Source: a virus. From it: a DNA stretch of 48,299 nucleotides. A program made the position numbers and the translations under genes. Within the stretch, counting starts at the first letter, position 1; each line of letters starts with the position of its first letter. This document shows positions 3,061 through 40,695 of the stretch, in pieces. The stretch spans positions 1 through 48,299 of IMG/VR virus record IMGVR_UViG_3300029990_000011. One strand, given 5' to 3'. The notes under the pieces were generated by a model. That model did not search any database. It worked only from the letters and a program-made list of their open reading frames with translations, and was not told the DNA's origin.

Positions 3061-3429
3061 TTAAAATTGCTTACCATCGTTAGGTTCGCCTTGGGATTGC
3101 GCTCTTAGAGCGGTTATAATATACATCTTCCCGTCAGATTCATTCTTTTCAACTTTTATATTATTAACCCTGAAAAGTGTATCTATGGATATGTCAAAGT
3201 TAGAATCCCAAAGCTTTTGATTATACATAATGTAAAACGTATGTTCATACCCGCGTGACTTACTCATAGAGCGGGTGAACGTAACATTTTTCATATGCGT
3301 CGGAAGTATGCTTTTAATCTTGTTCTTGATCTTTTCAAACTCTTCATAACTCAAAGTATTGAAGTCTGCATTCCGGAGAGCGTTAACCGCTTTAACAAAG
3401 CCAGTGGCATTAAATGTATTGCTTTTCAT
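3061..3429 (-). CDS. Hypothetical protein
   Basis: A 122-residue protein, not recognised. An N-terminal helical half (FVKAVNALRNADFNTLSYEEFEK split by short turns) is followed by a basic, beta-rich half (NVTFTRSMSKSRGYEHTFYI, DISIDTLFRVNNIKVEK). Its ATG overlaps the TAA of the upstream tiny membrane-protein gene (TAATG), supporting the start. A 58-bp gap without visible signals follows it. Confidence 0.7.
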   Translation of the reverse strand: MKSNTFNATGFVKAVNALRNADFNTLSYEEFEKIKNKIKSILPTHMKNVTFTRSMSKSRGYEHTFYIMYNQKLWDSNFDISIDTLFRVNNIKVEKNESDGKMYIITALRAQSQGEPNDGKQF

Positions 3430-6135: not shown

Positions 6136-6369
6136 TTACTTGTAGATTTTATTGTGTTGGTCTTGATAATACTGACATTCCAATTTGTCTTTGGTCAAAT
6201 TAACAGCGAAAGGAGCGGAGTAGTTTGAACTGGCCAATACAAGATAGCGCATACCGTCTACGGTTACAACCTTTCCTTCAACCGATTGTATGTAATTGTA
6301 GGACTTCCCCTCTTTGGGAGTGAACGCCGTTATCGCTAACAACGCAACAAAGATAATTATCTTTTTCAT
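6136..6369 (-). CDS. Small exported protein
   Basis: A 77-residue protein with an N-terminal signal peptide (MKKIIIFVALLAITAFT, residues 1-17, cleavage probably shortly after). The mature part is polar and beta-rich (VEGKVVTVDGMRYLVLASSN). It shares one base with the stop of the sigma-factor gene. Export from the infected cell's cytoplasm suggests an envelope role, for example superinfection exclusion or assistance in lysis; that is inference only. Confidence 0.65.
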   Translation of the reverse strand: MKKIIIFVALLAITAFTPKEGKSYNYIQSVEGKVVTVDGMRYLVLASSNYSAPFAVNLTKDKLECQYYQDQHNKIYK

Positions 6370-7637
6370 TATTTCTTGAATTTAATAACGCCGCGTAACA
6401 AACACTCAACTAACTGTTCAGCGGTTTCGAACAATTGCGTGTTCCTGATATTCTTTTCAATTTGCCCGCCGCCTTTATTTATATGGTGCCAATACTCAAT
6501 ATGATCTTCGTCGTCTTCTTCTTTGTAAACCCCGCTTATTTCCACTTCTTGGATAGACCGTAATTGGGGGTTCAGCCAAAAGCACCTTTGGTCAATATCA
6601 AAGTGAGTCCGGCGGGTAACTTTTGGAGCGATTTCGGCTTTTAGTTTCTGTGGCCTGTTCATCTCTTTGGCCACTTCAGACACAACGGCTTTGTCTTTTA
6701 CAAATTTCTTTGGTTCTTCTTGTTGCCCGTATAAAGGCAAAACTTTAACCTTATTGTACTTTTCAGATATGAGACTTTTGAAAACAATTGCTTCTTGGGC
6801 CAATGTATCATAATCTGGAATAACATCCCCTGACGCACGATAACGAAGACCGCTTTTGTTCCCCTCGGTCATGAAAAGTTTATTGGTCTTCAATACCTGA
6901 TTTATGGGAGCGCCCCAATTATGGTCTAACCCGCATTTGATATACATTGGAGTGATAGGGTGATCCTTTACATCAATCCAACGATTATTACTTAATTCAA
7001 AAATCATGGCGAAGAACTTCTTCAAGCTTTCAGTTTTGTCAATTTTAGTTCCCATGTCAATTGTTGTTATTTGGTTATTGTTTGATTTGTTGTTATTAAT
7101 AACTTTGGGGCAATTAGTTTTGGGTTTCTTTACAAACTCTTTTATTTTCCCCAAACCGTTTATTTGGTCAATCAATATTTGGCGCGCTAAGAATATACGG
7201 CTTTTTATGGTTCCAATTGGCAGTTCTAGTTGCTCGGCAATCTCTTCGTATTTGAAGCCTGATACTGACATATCGAATGGGATACGCAACGTTTCTCTTA
7301 ACCCGTCTACGAACTTCCGTATATCTTTGTATTTTAGCTCTTCGTCCGCGTTATCGGTGTTGCTTACTACAGTATTTGTCGCAGTTTCGTAATCGCCTTC
7401 TTTTATTACCAACTTCTTTCGGTACTCGTTGACAAAGGTATTCTTCAAAATTATATGACCCCAAGCGTTCATATTTGTCCCAGCTTCAAATTTATCCCTA
7501 TTGCGTAACATAAGCAATATCGTATTGCTTACCAAATCTTCAGCGGCGAATATATCTCCAAAATAATATATCTTTGCTTTTGCTAAAAGCTTTACGCGTA
7601 AATCAACAACACCTTGCTCAAACTCGTCTACTGGCAT
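6369..7637 (-). CDS. ECF-type sigma factor fused to an unknown C-terminal domain
   Basis: A 422-residue protein. Residues 30-75 match sigma region 2 (AAEDLVSNTILLMLRN, NAWGHIILKNTFVNEYRK) and residues 112-160 match region 4 with its helix-turn-helix (FKYEEIAEQLELPIGTIKSR), so the N-terminal half should direct host RNA polymerase to phage promoters. An Asn-rich linker (residues 180-194) joins a further 228 residues that start at an internal Met (residue 195, base 7055) and resemble no domain I know. The linker DNA carries 22 bases identical to the leader of the gene at 11.0-11.25 kb, so the second half may be a separate gene translated from that Met. Sigma call firm; fusion versus two genes open. 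Confidence 0.85.
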   Translation of the reverse strand: MPVDEFEQGVVDLRVKLLAKAKIYYFGDIFAAEDLVSNTILLMLRNRDKFEAGTNMNAWGHIILKNTFVNEYRKKLVIKEGDYETATNTVVSNTDNADEELKYKDIRKFVDGLRETLRIPFDMSVSGFKYEEIAEQLELPIGTIKSRIFLARQILIDQINGLGKIKEFVKKPKTNCPKVINNNKSNNNQITTIDMGTKIDKTESLKKFFAMIFELSNNRWIDVKDHPITPMYIKCGLDHNWGAPINQVLKTNKLFMTEGNKSGLRYRASGDVIPDYDTLAQEAIVFKSLISEKYNKVKVLPLYGQQEEPKKFVKDKAVVSEVAKEMNRPQKLKAEIAPKVTRRTHFDIDQRCFWLNPQLRSIQEVEISGVYKEEDDEDHIEYWHHINKGGGQIEKNIRNTQLFETAEQLVECLLRGVIKFKK

Positions 7638-11006: not shown

Positions 11007-11249
11007 TTATGCTAATTCGTAACTATCACTGTAACGACGACATTCGTCGGCTGACATATTCAAAGCCTTTACCAAAGCAGCTCCTGTTTTAGGTTCGCGG
11101 GGAATTTTGTTATTCCAAGAATGTCCGCATTCCAAACTGTAGCCAAATATGCCATGTATCATTTCGTCCATAGTGCCTTCGAAAGTTGTATCGCGGCCAT
11201 TGTGATGTTTGATGACTTTATAAGTCTTGGGAGTTTTTTGTATTGCCAT
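11007..11249 (-). CDS. Hypothetical protein, first gene of a promoter unit
   Basis: An 80-residue protein. Residues 20-66 (TFEGTMDEMIHGIFGYSLE, CGHSWNNKIPREPKTGAAL) form a pattern I recall from several Bacteroidetes-phage proteins: a strand, a helix, then Y-T/S-L-E-C/V-G-x-S and P-K-T-x-x-x-L-V. Its role is unknown. The ATG lies about 35 bases downstream of a conserved promoter box and has an A-rich leader (AACAACAAATCAAACAAC), so it should be expressed strongly from the start of that transcript. Confidence 0.7.
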   Translation of the reverse strand: MAIQKTPKTYKVIKHHNGRDTTFEGTMDEMIHGIFGYSLECGHSWNNKIPREPKTGAALVKALNMSADECRRYSDSYELA

Positions 11250-11283
11250 AATGTTGTTTGATTTGTTGTTATTAAATAAGTAT

Positions 11284-11371
11284 GGGTAAAACTATATAAA
11301 AAAGAAATACCAACCTAATGTTTTCTTGATTATTTTTAGTTTTACCCAATTATTTAACGTTTGCCCAATGT
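11284..11371 (-). promoter_or_regulatory. Conserved phage promoter, copy 1
   Basis: Read on the minus strand it contains GTTAAAT, then 32 bases including TTGG and AAAAATAA, then ATTAGGTT, then exactly 17 bases, then TAGTTTTACCCATA. The last block resembles the Bacteroidetes -7 box TAnnTTTG, and ATTAGGTT sits where the -33 box would be. ACATTGGGCAAAC extends the match further upstream and is shared with copy 2. It begins eight bases after the preceding gene ends and drives the 80-residue gene at 11.0-11.25 kb. Confidence 0.8.
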
Positions 11372-12212: not shown

Positions 12213-12485
12213 TTAAATACAGTTAGTTAGTGTCAAAAATGAATGCATTTCAGCGTCGTCCGTATTTACATTATTAACGCCTATTACTCCGCTTTCTGCG
12301 AAAATTGTAGCCACTTTGGTGATGTGGGTATTTTTAAACTCGGTAGTACCCGCGCCCGCTTTCCAAACCTTTACTAAATTTTCCGCTTTTATTACTGTTA
12401 CGCTAGTTCCGTTTAATGTATATTTGCAAGAATATTTGTCTGCGTAAGTGACTTTTACTTCTAATTTAATTCTGATAGTTGCCAT
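12213..12485 (-). CDS. Hypothetical beta-rich protein, first gene of a promoter unit
   Basis: A 90-residue protein, almost entirely strand-like (ATIRIKLEVKVTYADKYSCK, SVTVIKAENLVKVWKAGAG, VATIFAESGVIGVNN). Not recognised. Its ATG lies about 30 bases after promoter copy 2 and has the leader AATAAATAACACCTCAATATT, which supports the start and strong expression. Confidence 0.65.
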   Translation of the reverse strand: MATIRIKLEVKVTYADKYSCKYTLNGTSVTVIKAENLVKVWKAGAGTTEFKNTHITKVATIFAESGVIGVNNVNTDDAEMHSFLTLTNCI

Positions 12486-12512
12486 AATATTGAGGTGTTA
12501 TTTATTAGTTAT

Positions 12513-12600
12513 GGGTAAAACTACTAATAAAACAAACACGAACCTAATATTTCAGCATTTATTTTTGGGTTGAACCAAAGATTTAACGTTTGCCCAATGT
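12513..12600 (-). promoter_or_regulatory. Conserved phage promoter, copy 2
   Basis: Same architecture as the copy at 11.3 kb: ACATTGGGCAAACGTTAAAT, 32 bases containing CTTTGG and AAAAATAA, ATTAGGTT, exactly 17 bases, TAGTTTTACCCATAA. Sequence between the blocks differs from copy 1 while the spacing is identical, which argues for selection rather than recent duplication. A terminator lies 40 bases upstream, so this unit is insulated. It drives the 90-residue gene at 12.2-12.5 kb. Confidence 0.82.
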
Positions 12601-12639: not shown

Positions 12640-12680
12640 AAAAAAAGAGGCAAACCGTTTCGCAACGCCCTACCTCTTAT
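12640..12680 (-). terminator. Rho-independent terminator
   Basis: On the minus strand ATAAGAGG and CCTCTTTTTTT pair around a 22-nt loop that is partly self-complementary, followed by a run of seven T. It ends the transcript that includes the tRNA-like element and insulates promoter copy 2. Confidence 0.7.
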
Positions 12681-12754
12681 AAATTAATGCGAGCCGTAAT
12701 TCACCAACCCGCTTTTAAAACCAAATGAAATTAAACAATAACATATAGAGTTTG

Positions 12755-12877
12755 CTCCCCATACGGGCATCGAACCCGCTCAATCCTTACATTGGACTGC
12801 CGATATGCTTTACACGAGATGCACCCCGCAGCTTGTTTATCTGGTCCCAGATTATGCACCCATACACCAATGGGGAG
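12755..12877 (-). ncRNA. tRNA-like RNA with exact acceptor/T-arm geometry but extra arms
   Basis: On the minus strand CTCCCCAT and ATGGGGAG form a perfect acceptor-like stem. Directly inside the 3' strand is a T-arm (GCGGG, loop TTCGATG, CCCGT) with the invariant TTCGA, at exactly the spacing of a real tRNA. The 5' side reads TGGTGTATGGGTGCATA, like a D-arm. The middle is about 46 nt too long and folds as three hairpins: ATCTGG/CCAGAT, CTGC..GCAG with inner TGC..GCA, and AGTCC/GGATT with a 7-nt loop AATGTAA. No standard anticodon loop with U33 is present and no CCA is encoded. A 63-codon frame (12731-12922) crosses the same bases. Decayed tRNA, fused tRNAs or a novel tRNA-like RNA are possible. 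Confidence 0.5.
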
Positions 12878-27416: not shown

Positions 27417-27935
27417 TTAACCGATTAATTTCTTAGTTTTCTTAATAGTAATGTTATTAACTTTGCCCTGAATCATATCATCAGTAATGTCCCCCGTTTG
27501 CATACTCATAGACAATTTATCAAGCTTGCCCGATTTGTCTTTAGAGCTCCAAAATACGCTTTGGATATAGTCGCGATTCTTTTGAGTTTCGATAAAAGAT
27601 TTCTTCATTGCTTGAAAACCTTTATCTAACATTATGGCTGAATTTAATTCGTCCACCGTCGCCGCCTTACCTCCTTTTTGATTGGTTATCTCAACCCTAA
27701 GACGTTCTTTCACTTTAGCTTCAAATATGTCCACGTTCAGTTTCTTTTCTGAAACTTGTGCTTCCATGTCAGCCAACAATTTACCAAACCGATTAACAAT
27801 GACTGGGAACGTGATTATTTCGCCAATCAAATTTGAATAATCAATTTTCAACAAAGAATCAATATCGACTTCTTCATTAAACTCGTCGAATACCAATTTA
27901 TAATCAGTACCTCCAACAGTTATTAATTTAATCAT
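27417..27935 (-). CDS. Possible UvsY-like recombination mediator
   Basis: A 172-residue protein, alpha-rich: an acidic N-terminus, a coiled-coil centre (LADMEAQVSEKKLNVDIFEA, VKERLRVE) and a basic C-terminus (NNITIKKTKKLIG). Between are AATVDELNSAIMLDKGF and QKNRDYIQSVFWSSKDKSGK. Length, charge and location between the gp32-like and uvsX genes fit UvsY, which loads UvsX on gp32-coated DNA. There is no sequence motif to prove it; call by context. Confidence 0.5.
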   Translation of the reverse strand: MIKLITVGGTDYKLVFDEFNEEVDIDSLLKIDYSNLIGEIITFPVIVNRFGKLLADMEAQVSEKKLNVDIFEAKVKERLRVEITNQKGGKAATVDELNSAIMLDKGFQAMKKSFIETQKNRDYIQSVFWSSKDKSGKLDKLSMSMQTGDITDDMIQGKVNNITIKKTKKLIG

Positions 27936-28254
27936 CGTTGCTTGTTTTTAATATCGGTTTATCTTCCACAATATCAGATTTAAGGATATGCAACCCGATA
28001 ACCGCGTATCCCATTATATCTTTAAGAGTGTCTTCCAGACTTTCAAAATTAGCGGGGATTCCCCTCATTTGTTTTTCCACCAAACTCCTGTACCTTCGAG
28101 CCTTGTCCCAAATATGTACCATATTCCCATTAACTCCTAAATCAAACGAAGCCCCACCGTAATCTAAATTCTTTTTTACGAGAATAACCGTAACCGCCGC
28201 GAATATTTCTTCGATAGTTTCCTTTGTCATTCTTTCTTTTTCTTCCTTGCCCAT
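27928..28254 (-). CDS. Nmad1-like (DUF1599) nucleotide-modification-associated protein
   Basis: A 108-residue helical protein with the pattern KKNLDYGGASFDLGVNG, WDKARRYRSLVEKQ and ESLEDTLKDIMGYAVIGLHI, which matches the nucleotide-modification-associated domain 1 family as I remember it. Members occur in phages near thymidylate synthase-like and kinase genes, and a helical dUTPase-like fold has been suggested. It overlaps the UvsY-like gene by eight bases and lies next to an HD nucleotidase. Precise substrate unknown. Confidence 0.75.
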   Translation of the reverse strand: MGKEEKERMTKETIEEIFAAVTVILVKKNLDYGGASFDLGVNGNMVHIWDKARRYRSLVEKQMRGIPANFESLEDTLKDIMGYAVIGLHILKSDIVEDKPILKTSNDD

Positions 28255-34833: not shown

Positions 34834-35463
34834 TCAATCTTCGTGGCTATATGTTCTATATATTTCTCTTTCTCGGTGCAATTCAGAGCCGTACTTAGTA
34901 AGTAAAAACTCTTTGTGCATTTCTATTATTTCGTCTGGGGTGAATGGGTCGTCGTCGTTATACATTACTCCCTTTATTGGTTCACTATTATTATAAACTT
35001 TGGAGATAATTTTGTTGGTGCAACCTTTCAGATATAATGAGAATACAACTCTGTTCATTCCAGTCAATCCTTCCAATAAATTTATACCGTTTAAAATAAA
35101 TTTGTTTTCTTCCGGAACTATGCAAGTATCAATGTCTGAACCAAAATCGTATTCTATATCGTCCATGCGAACTTTATAATTTTCACGGGCGATGTACTTC
35201 ATAAAATCTTTGGATTTATTTGAACACGCGGCTTCTAAATAATACTTTAATGGTACTGGTTTTGCATAACCCTCAAGTTTGTATTTTCTCCAACGCTTCC
35301 CGTAAGATTTAATCGAGGTGAAAATTTTAATTTTAAATTCTTGTAATAAATCTTCGTATTGATACGACAGTTCAGAGTAGGAGTAAATTTTGTTGGCATA
35401 TTTTTTAGCCAAATGTTCATATCTGTCGTAGAGCACTTCAGACATTTGTTTTTTGATTTCCAT
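34834..35463 (-). CDS. Sigma-70-like phage transcription factor
   Basis: A 209-residue protein. Residues 36-90 resemble sigma region 2 (YEDLLQEFKIKIFTSIKSYG, PLKYYLEAACSNKSKDFMKY) and the last 75 residues a region-4-like segment (GMNRVVFSLYLKGCTNKIIS then DEIIEMHKEFLLTKYG). Such proteins, T4 gp55 for example, direct host RNA polymerase to phage late promoters. It is the first gene behind promoter copy 3, with a 35-base leader, so it belongs to the same regulon as the two small genes near 11-12.5 kb. Confidence 0.72.
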   Translation of the reverse strand: MEIKKQMSEVLYDRYEHLAKKYANKIYSYSELSYQYEDLLQEFKIKIFTSIKSYGKRWRKYKLEGYAKPVPLKYYLEAACSNKSKDFMKYIARENYKVRMDDIEYDFGSDIDTCIVPEENKFILNGINLLEGLTGMNRVVFSLYLKGCTNKIISKVYNNSEPIKGVMYNDDDPFTPDEIIEMHKEFLLTKYGSELHREREIYRTYSHED

Positions 35464-35497
35464 TTTAAATTTACGATTTAGTATTACAATTATGGTA

Positions 35498-35582
35498 CAA
35501 AGATAATATATTTTAGGACTAGAACCTAATGTTTTTGTATTTATTTTTAAATTTAGCCAAAGATTTAACTAATTTTAAAAAT
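35498..35582 (-). promoter_or_regulatory. Conserved phage promoter, copy 3
   Basis: On the minus strand: GTTAAATCTTTGG, AAAAATAA, ATTAGGTT (32 bases after GTTAAAT), exactly 17 bases, then TATCTTTGTACC, a perfect Bacteroidetes TAnnTTTG box. Blocks and spacing match copies 1 and 2, while the rest differs. The far upstream ACATTGGGCAAAC extension of copies 1 and 2 is missing, so it may be dispensable. It drives the sigma-like gene. Confidence 0.82.
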
Positions 35583-40407: not shown

Positions 40408-40695
40408 TTCTTAATATTTTACAGGAGAAAGGATAAAGAAGAAGACCACCCCCTCTCCCCTCTTTGGGTTACTTTACAGTATGAAAGTCGTGAGTTGTTA
40501 ATAGACCACCCCTTGTTCAGACCGAAACAGAGCTCACACGTTAGTCTTAAACTTTGAACGGAAAATGCCGATTTAAAAGCATTCTAAGCAATCTTGAAAG
40601 CTCTTTCATATAAGTAATTGAACCCATATAGAAAGTTTATTAACAAAAAGAGCGGGCATAAATAGCTCGCTCTTTAGATGCATTAAGTAATCAAG
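40408..40695. promoter_or_regulatory. Intergenic region between virion and replication blocks
   Basis: No gene is supported. It contains the terminator of the virion block (40644-40676), a palindrome GAAAGCTCTTTC at 40596-40607, and two copies of AGACCACCCC exactly 60 bases apart (40443 and 40503). A promoter for the uvsW-led operon must lie here, but no block matching the three conserved promoters is seen. The TTTCTCCTGTAAAATATTAAG leader of uvsW includes a weak Shine-Dalgarno-like purine run only on the other strand. Confidence 0.6.
40644..40676 (-). terminator. Rho-independent terminator of the virion block
   Basis: On the minus strand AAAGAGCGAGC and GCCCGCTCTTTTTGTT pair (AAAGAGCG/CGCTCTTT) around AGCTATTTATGCC, followed by a T-rich run. 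It lies 20 bases after the stop of the last structural gene. Confidence 0.82.

Follow-up and report, generated by a model that had tools for sequence, protein, structure and literature searches.

A putative promoter family with a conserved upstream element and a variant -33 box in an uncultured phage of a likely Bacteroidota host

Three copies of a promoter-like element, identical in spacing and each placed just before a gene, were found in the window, that is, the whole stretch of DNA analysed here, a virus record of 48,299 bases (IMG/VR IMGVR_UViG_3300029990_000011). We put at about even chances the reading that they are sigma-A-type phage promoters with an A-rich, UP-like region and an upstream dyad for an activator that is probably phage-encoded. 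At the sequence level, the family, its fixed geometry, its position before genes, its conservation in relatives and a swap at the -33 box are evident. Essentially all window genes lie on the minus strand, and their products include a DNA polymerase, UvsX-like and SbcCD-like proteins, a primase, DnaB-like and other helicases, a thymidylate synthase and a tail fibre. The best-covering matches of the polymerase (30-36% identity) come from phages of Chryseobacterium, Cellulophaga, Tenacibaculum and Bacteroides, which suggests a host most likely among the Bacteroidota.

Three copies with identical geometry

The preliminary description of this DNA reported blocks spaced by exactly 32 and 17 bases at 11.3, 12.5 and 35.5 kb, and both spacings are exact in all three copies (GTTAAAT-N32-ATTAGGTT and ATTAGGTT-N17-TAKYTTT). 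The window holds three matches to the full pattern, GTTAAAT-N14-AAAAATAA-N10-ATTAGGTT-N17-TAKYTTT, and no others; they lie on the minus strand, have block 1 starting at 11358, 12587 and 35569, and are identical in all spacings. The reversed pattern gave none. The genome scan proposed in that description, run on the window plus 13.4 kb of extra sequence from an overlapping contig, returned the same three sites and no further ones. Block 1 is longer than first described, extending to GTTAAATnnTTGG. Predicted transcription starts follow the F. johnsoniae numbering, in which the -7 box has its T at -12.

11287..11358, minus strand: promoter copy 1, predicted start near 11282; blocks GTTAAATAATTGG (11358-11346), AAAAATAA (11337-11330), ATTAGGTT (11319-11312, -33 region) and TAGTTTTA (11294-11287, -7 box)
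11007..11249, minus strand: 80-aa gene behind copy 1
12516..12587, minus strand: promoter copy 2, predicted start near 12511; blocks GTTAAATCTTTGG (12587-12575), AAAAATAA (12566-12559), ATTAGGTT (12548-12541) and TAGTTTTA (12523-12516)
12568-12564, minus strand: CCAAA half of the dyad in copy 2
12213..12485, minus strand: 90-aa gene behind copy 2, function not recognised
35498..35569, minus strand: promoter copy 3, predicted start near 35493; blocks GTTAAATCTTTGG (35569-35557), AAAAATAA (35548-35541), ATTAGGTT (35530-35523) and TATCTTTG (35505-35498)
34834..35463, minus strand: 209-aa sigma-like gene behind copy 3

A start codon follows 30-37 bases after the end of each site, giving predicted leaders of 26-33 nt. 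The -7 box reads TAGTTTTA in copies 1 and 2 and the canonical TATCTTTG in copy 3. Between the window copies the blocks are identical at 28/28 positions, compared with 17-23 of the other 43, in line with the earlier remark that the bases between the blocks differ; the corresponding p-values (4e-6 to 2e-8) are inflated, because the blocks were picked for matching. A fairer test is the orthologous promoter in another phage (G006), where 26/28 positions are identical inside the blocks versus 30/43 outside (p = 0.018). A PWM built from the three window sites and one orthologue scored the copies at 57.9, 54.9 and 54.6, with the next best window site at 14.7 and a shuffled-sequence peak near 13; this gap is partly built in, since the matrix derives from those very sites and one orthologue, and the exact pattern searches agree with the PWM result for the three sites. 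The copies at 11.3 and 12.5 kb have common flanks well beyond the blocks, suggesting that they are probably one duplicated cassette and not two independent cases, and copy 3 has only the blocks in common with them.

Other features were noticed in the window. A hairpin (AAGAGG...CCTCTTTTTTT) with a T-run, seen by eye at 12640-12690 on the minus strand just upstream of copy 2, is likely to be the terminator of the preceding transcript; it is absent from the list given by the terminator scan. At 12755-12877 on the same strand lies a tRNA-like sequence of about 123 nt, with an acceptor-like stem (CTCCCCAT/ATGGGGAG) and a T-arm-like GCGGGTTCGATGCCCGT, which was reported by neither ARAGORN nor Rfam. 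In the predicted RNA fold, both the outer stem and the T arm are closed (z-score -1.66). The sequence exceeds the length of an ordinary tRNA, and it may be a decoy or contain an insertion. A stretch of 288 bases at 40408-40695, between the replication genes and the following block, has no minus-strand ORF of at least 40 aa and shows repeats such as GGGGTGGTCT.

Conservation in related phages and the -33 box

Related phages carry the pattern, whose absence from relatives the preliminary description had named as telling against its proposal. In G006, a phage about 82% identical over the region, the orthologous promoter of the 209-aa sigma-like gene keeps GTTAAATCTTTGG, AAAAATAA, TAGGTT and TATCTTTG. 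In front of orthologues of this gene that are 54-77% identical, the promoter recurs and consistently differs in one respect, its -33 box being TTTTG.

L177 promoter: GTTAAACTTTTGG...GTTTTG...TATACCTTTG, upstream block one change from GTTAAATCTTTGG
L179 promoter: GTTAAATCTTTGG...ATTTTG...TTAATTTCG
G024 promoter: GTTAAATCTTTGG...GTTTTG...TTACCTTTG
G019 promoter: GTTAAATCTTTGG...ATTTTG...TACCTTTG

The distance from GTTAAAT to the -33 region (N32) is equal in L177, with its one change in GTTAAATCTTTGG, and in L179, G019, G024 and G020. Because the promoters of the relatives have canonical TTTTG at exactly the position of ATTAGGTT, the alignment indicates that ATTAGGTT is a variant of the -33 box occupying its place, as had been proposed. 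Exact geometry, placement just before genes and conservation in relatives likewise uphold the earlier view of a selected promoter family.

The upstream element is not tied to the core. G014, a near-complete 101-kb contig with a sigma-like gene 63% identical, keeps the core promoter at that gene (TTTTG and TACCTTTA) and lacks GTTAAATCTTTGG, suggesting that element and core are separable modules and that the putative activator is not universal. The family PWM found no members in G014 or in the isolated phages DAC16 and MA9V-3. A core-promoter scan (T[TA][TG]G-N18-20-TAnnTTT[GA], outside genes and before a gene) of the window with its extension, of G006 and of G019 plus G016 recovered only promoters that carry the upstream element.

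Some looser resemblances were also recorded. Canonical phage promoters in L214, L222 (a 178,667-base contig), L208 and L220 have a partial, divergent GTTAAA..TTGG at the same distance and are possibly distant family members. An intergenic region of G019 (3147-3352, reverse complement) holds a promoter-like site with -7 box TACCTTCG and without the upstream element, where GTTAGATA at the -33 place is possibly another form of that box. A loose 14-base pattern matched more than 100 stretches of viral contigs and was set aside as mostly chance.

Two forms of the -33 box were seen overall, TTTTG/TTTGG and TTAGG, with TTAGG in all three window copies; when sites are lined up by their -7 boxes, TTTGG and TTAGG fall at the same position and differ in a single base. 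The search AAAACATTAGGT-N17-19-TAnnTTTG matched 45 viral stretches and, since the reversed control also yielded 26, only matches in promoter position were counted, amounting to 12 of 23 distinct forward sequences versus 1 of 17 distinct control sequences. Eight ATTAGGT-N17-19-TAnnTTTG sites, all on one strand, occur together with 22 TTTG sites in a 368-kb phage, for which the reversed control gave no match. A somewhat relaxed TTAGG pattern matched 26 times in 295 Bacteroidia genomes versus 18 in the reversed control, suggesting that the TTAGG promoter is at most a rare form in hosts; three host matches before frr proved on inspection to be coding sequence of the upstream gene.

Genes behind the promoters

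The 209-aa sigma-like gene heads a replication run (thymidylate synthase, DNA polymerase, UvsX-like). All seven orthologues of its product matched the PHROG sigma family (best E 2.6e-6; window copy 0.0011), consistent with the earlier statement that the regulon includes a sigma-like gene, and five of seven matched Pfam sigma region 2 (best 3.1e-4), with the window copy below the cut-off (0.013). Its AlphaFold model was too poor for use (mean pLDDT 47.8), and no PDB sequence match was found. A second protein with sigma domains is encoded elsewhere.

6369..7637, minus strand: 422-aa protein, sigma regions 2 and 4 (ECF-like)

Here the ECF-like domains occupy the first 160 residues and are followed by about 260 residues without a family match; this protein is a possible reader of phage promoters. 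Three sigma-like proteins had been counted originally, of which these two were recovered, and a third was not found among the proteins scanned, a set that took in some of the small proteins.

G019 and G016, contigs from one sample, were taken as one genome on the inference from complementary gene content and a promoter repeat shared at the contig ends. In this genome, an operon led by a promoter copy has a second gene, on G016, with a domain homologous to the 80-aa gene behind copy 1 (55% identity), then DUF2786-like and flap-nuclease-like genes, both names coming from sequence inspection and not from a family search. In G020 (also L217), a more distant phage, and in its relative L267, proteins like this pair are preceded by the same upstream element combined with ATTAGGT, and a TTTTG copy in G020 leads a helicase gene. 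Linkage of promoter and operon is thus conserved between window and G016 and between G016 and G020. Because the operons of G019 plus G016 and of G020/L267 match under different boxes, the comparison indicates that the promoter keeps its genes while the -33 box changes. The contigs L267, L269, L277, L290 and L297 represent the G020 relative (85-90%) with a TTAGG promoter. L267-type contigs occur in a metagenome series overlapping with that of the window phage, including sample 3300028772, and may belong to a different phage or be a missing part of the window phage's genome.

The upstream element and its putative activator

When the T of the -7 box is numbered -12, the -33 box lies at about -35 to -31, A-rich sequence at about -55 to -38, and the conserved upstream element, outside the host consensus, at about -76 to -53. 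The element holds a dyad, TTTGG-N6-CCAAA, centred at -60.5. Its register peaks sharply at N6 with a mean of 4.0/5 bases paired, and it is perfect in 5 of 11 sites, copy 2 among them, and weaker and imperfect in copies 1 and 3.

A host regulon hijacked by the phage was considered and rejected, because among 295 Bacteroidia genomes the composite element was matched in one, that match being the seed; a set of genome contigs gave eight scattered matches. This absence from host genomes favours an activator encoded by the phage. Comparing gene presence and absence across the window, G014 and element-bearing relatives yielded no candidate for its gene. A 141-aa gene (1939-2364) and the 80-aa gene (11007-11249) are both present in element-bearing phages and not in G014, but neither resembles a DNA-binding regulator. 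We also dismissed the idea that block 1 is the -33 box of a second, upstream promoter, most copies having, by eye, no TAnnTTTG at the right distance.

Discussion

Published Bacteroidota promoters combine a -7 box with a short leader, and they benefit from the -33 TTTG without depending on it (PMC2483708, PMC6847099). The phage family resembles these sigma-A promoters (-33 TTTG, -7 TAnnTTTG) in the -33 spacing, in the short predicted leader and, for some of its copies, in the -7 box; the -33/-7 consensus and the predicted leader length agree with published data, and sister phages carry TTTG itself at the same promoter. Transcription from sigma-A promoters is expected to begin 4-5 bases past the -7 box. 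For the -7 box, copy 3 and most orthologues fit TAnnTTTG with no G at -10/-9 (TATCTTTG, TACCTTTG), whereas TAGTTTTA of copies 1 and 2 has G at -10 and A at -5. Some 19-20 bases from the -7 box, where TTTG is expected, L177, L179, G019 and G024 have TTTTG. The window differs from the host promoters in having TTAGG at that place and in the conserved element.

Two further systems invite comparison. The window family can be compared, in manner of working only, with T4 middle promoters, which also serve phage replication genes and keep a -10-type box with other sequence in the -35 region. However, T4 has its MotA box at about -30, separated by 12 bp from the -10 element (PMC2988021), whereas the proposed activator site of the window lies near -60, with the -33 variant at host spacing. 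No MotA or AsiA homologue was recognised among the window proteins scanned; the product of 27928-28254 was rejected as MotA, its Pfam MotCF match being insignificant (E 0.09) and DUF1599 fitting better. Class I activated promoters with UP elements include the CRP at lac type. The analogy would lie in a dyad near -60.5 that is followed by an A-rich region and then by an intact core promoter. A class I promoter should have a conserved operator near -61 on the same DNA face, and the dyad has its centre at -60.5, although it is weak in copies 1 and 3. The window family differs in having no known activator, and TTTGG-N6-CCAAA matches no known regulator.

In the reading to which we give even chances, host-type RNA polymerase would bind the -7 box TAnnTTT(G/A) and the -33 box 19 bases upstream, and transcription would start at the predicted positions. 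The A-rich stretch just upstream (AAAAATAA...AAAA) would act like a UP element, and GTTAAATCTTTGG-N6-CCAAA, with its dyad near -60.5, would be the site of an activator, most likely phage-encoded, that contacts polymerase from a class I position. Such promoters would drive the sigma-like gene with the replication genes behind it, as well as operons of small genes.

Most of the same data could be accounted for by host components alone, with strong early promoters read by unmodified host polymerase. The upstream blocks would then be UP elements contacted by the alpha subunits (or by a host factor), the phage would have no activator devoted to them, and TTAGG would be just a tolerated variant of the -33 box. 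We regard this as possible, though on the doubtful side. Copy 3 and the relatives do have the canonical -7 box and spacing, the -33 box is not essential in the published work (PMC2483708), and GTTAAATCTTTGG is missing from many phages with TTAGG promoters, so that such promoters without the upstream element are common. Moreover, no other host-type promoters could be recognised in the sequences examined, and some promoters must work with host factors alone. Yet a UP element would not require a block of 13 bases that lies beyond the A-rich region and is unchanged across lineages, the composite element is missing from host genomes, and the G at -10 of copies 1 and 2 is almost never seen in F. johnsoniae promoters. 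That -10 base, as part of the atypical box TAGTTTTA, would suit better a phage sigma factor or phage-modified polymerase that reads TTAGG through T4-like sigma appropriation and defines an early-middle class, which was the explanation of ATTAGGTT first put forward. The phage has genes for an ECF-like sigma factor and for a sigma-like protein, and many phages preserve TTAGG in a form of its own (AAAACATTAGGT) that is near background in hosts. This explanation lost ground, however, because sister phages use TTTTG at the same gene's promoter, both -33 forms stand behind the same upstream element in one phage (G020), TTAGG promoters stand beside TTTG promoters in many phages, and the ECF-like sigma also occurs in G014 and DAC16, both without the promoter family. 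We consider it unlikely, and rank it a little below the combination of an ordinary sigma-A core and a phage activator.

The shape of the dyad and its presence at every copy would also suit an operator at which a repressor silences the operons before, or after, a certain stage, but a centre near -60.5 would not by itself block polymerase binding, and no repressor or lysogeny gene was recognised among the window proteins scanned, making this very improbable. Hardly any weight is given to a dispersed repeat, such as a mobile cassette or replication element, lying between genes by chance. Copies 1 and 2 with their extended common flanks do look duplicated and a near-identical copy recurs at a contig end in G019, but copy 3 and the orthologues have only the blocks in common, and the sites contain a canonical-type -7 box and are oriented toward a gene that lies some tens of bases downstream.

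A broader proposal, that a phage-encoded activator at GTTAAATCTTTGG-N6-CCAAA together with a phage-altered preference for TTAGG defines a regulated transcription class in several uncultured Bacteroidota phage lineages, is put forward tentatively, the odds being against it. If true, this class would work like T4 middle transcription, built on the divergent Bacteroidota sigma factor and of separate origin. Bacteroidota hosts use a divergent promoter code, yet a regulated phage promoter class is apparently undescribed there; the open-licence literature yielded no earlier description and nothing relevant on Bacteroidota phage promoters and the motif. The present analysis defines the motif, lists homologous promoters in which the -33 box takes either of two forms, and identifies sister phages that carry or lack the upstream element, so direct tests of the roles of an activator and of the -33 box are possible. 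The motif is also a pattern for locating operon heads in the genomes of uncultured phages.
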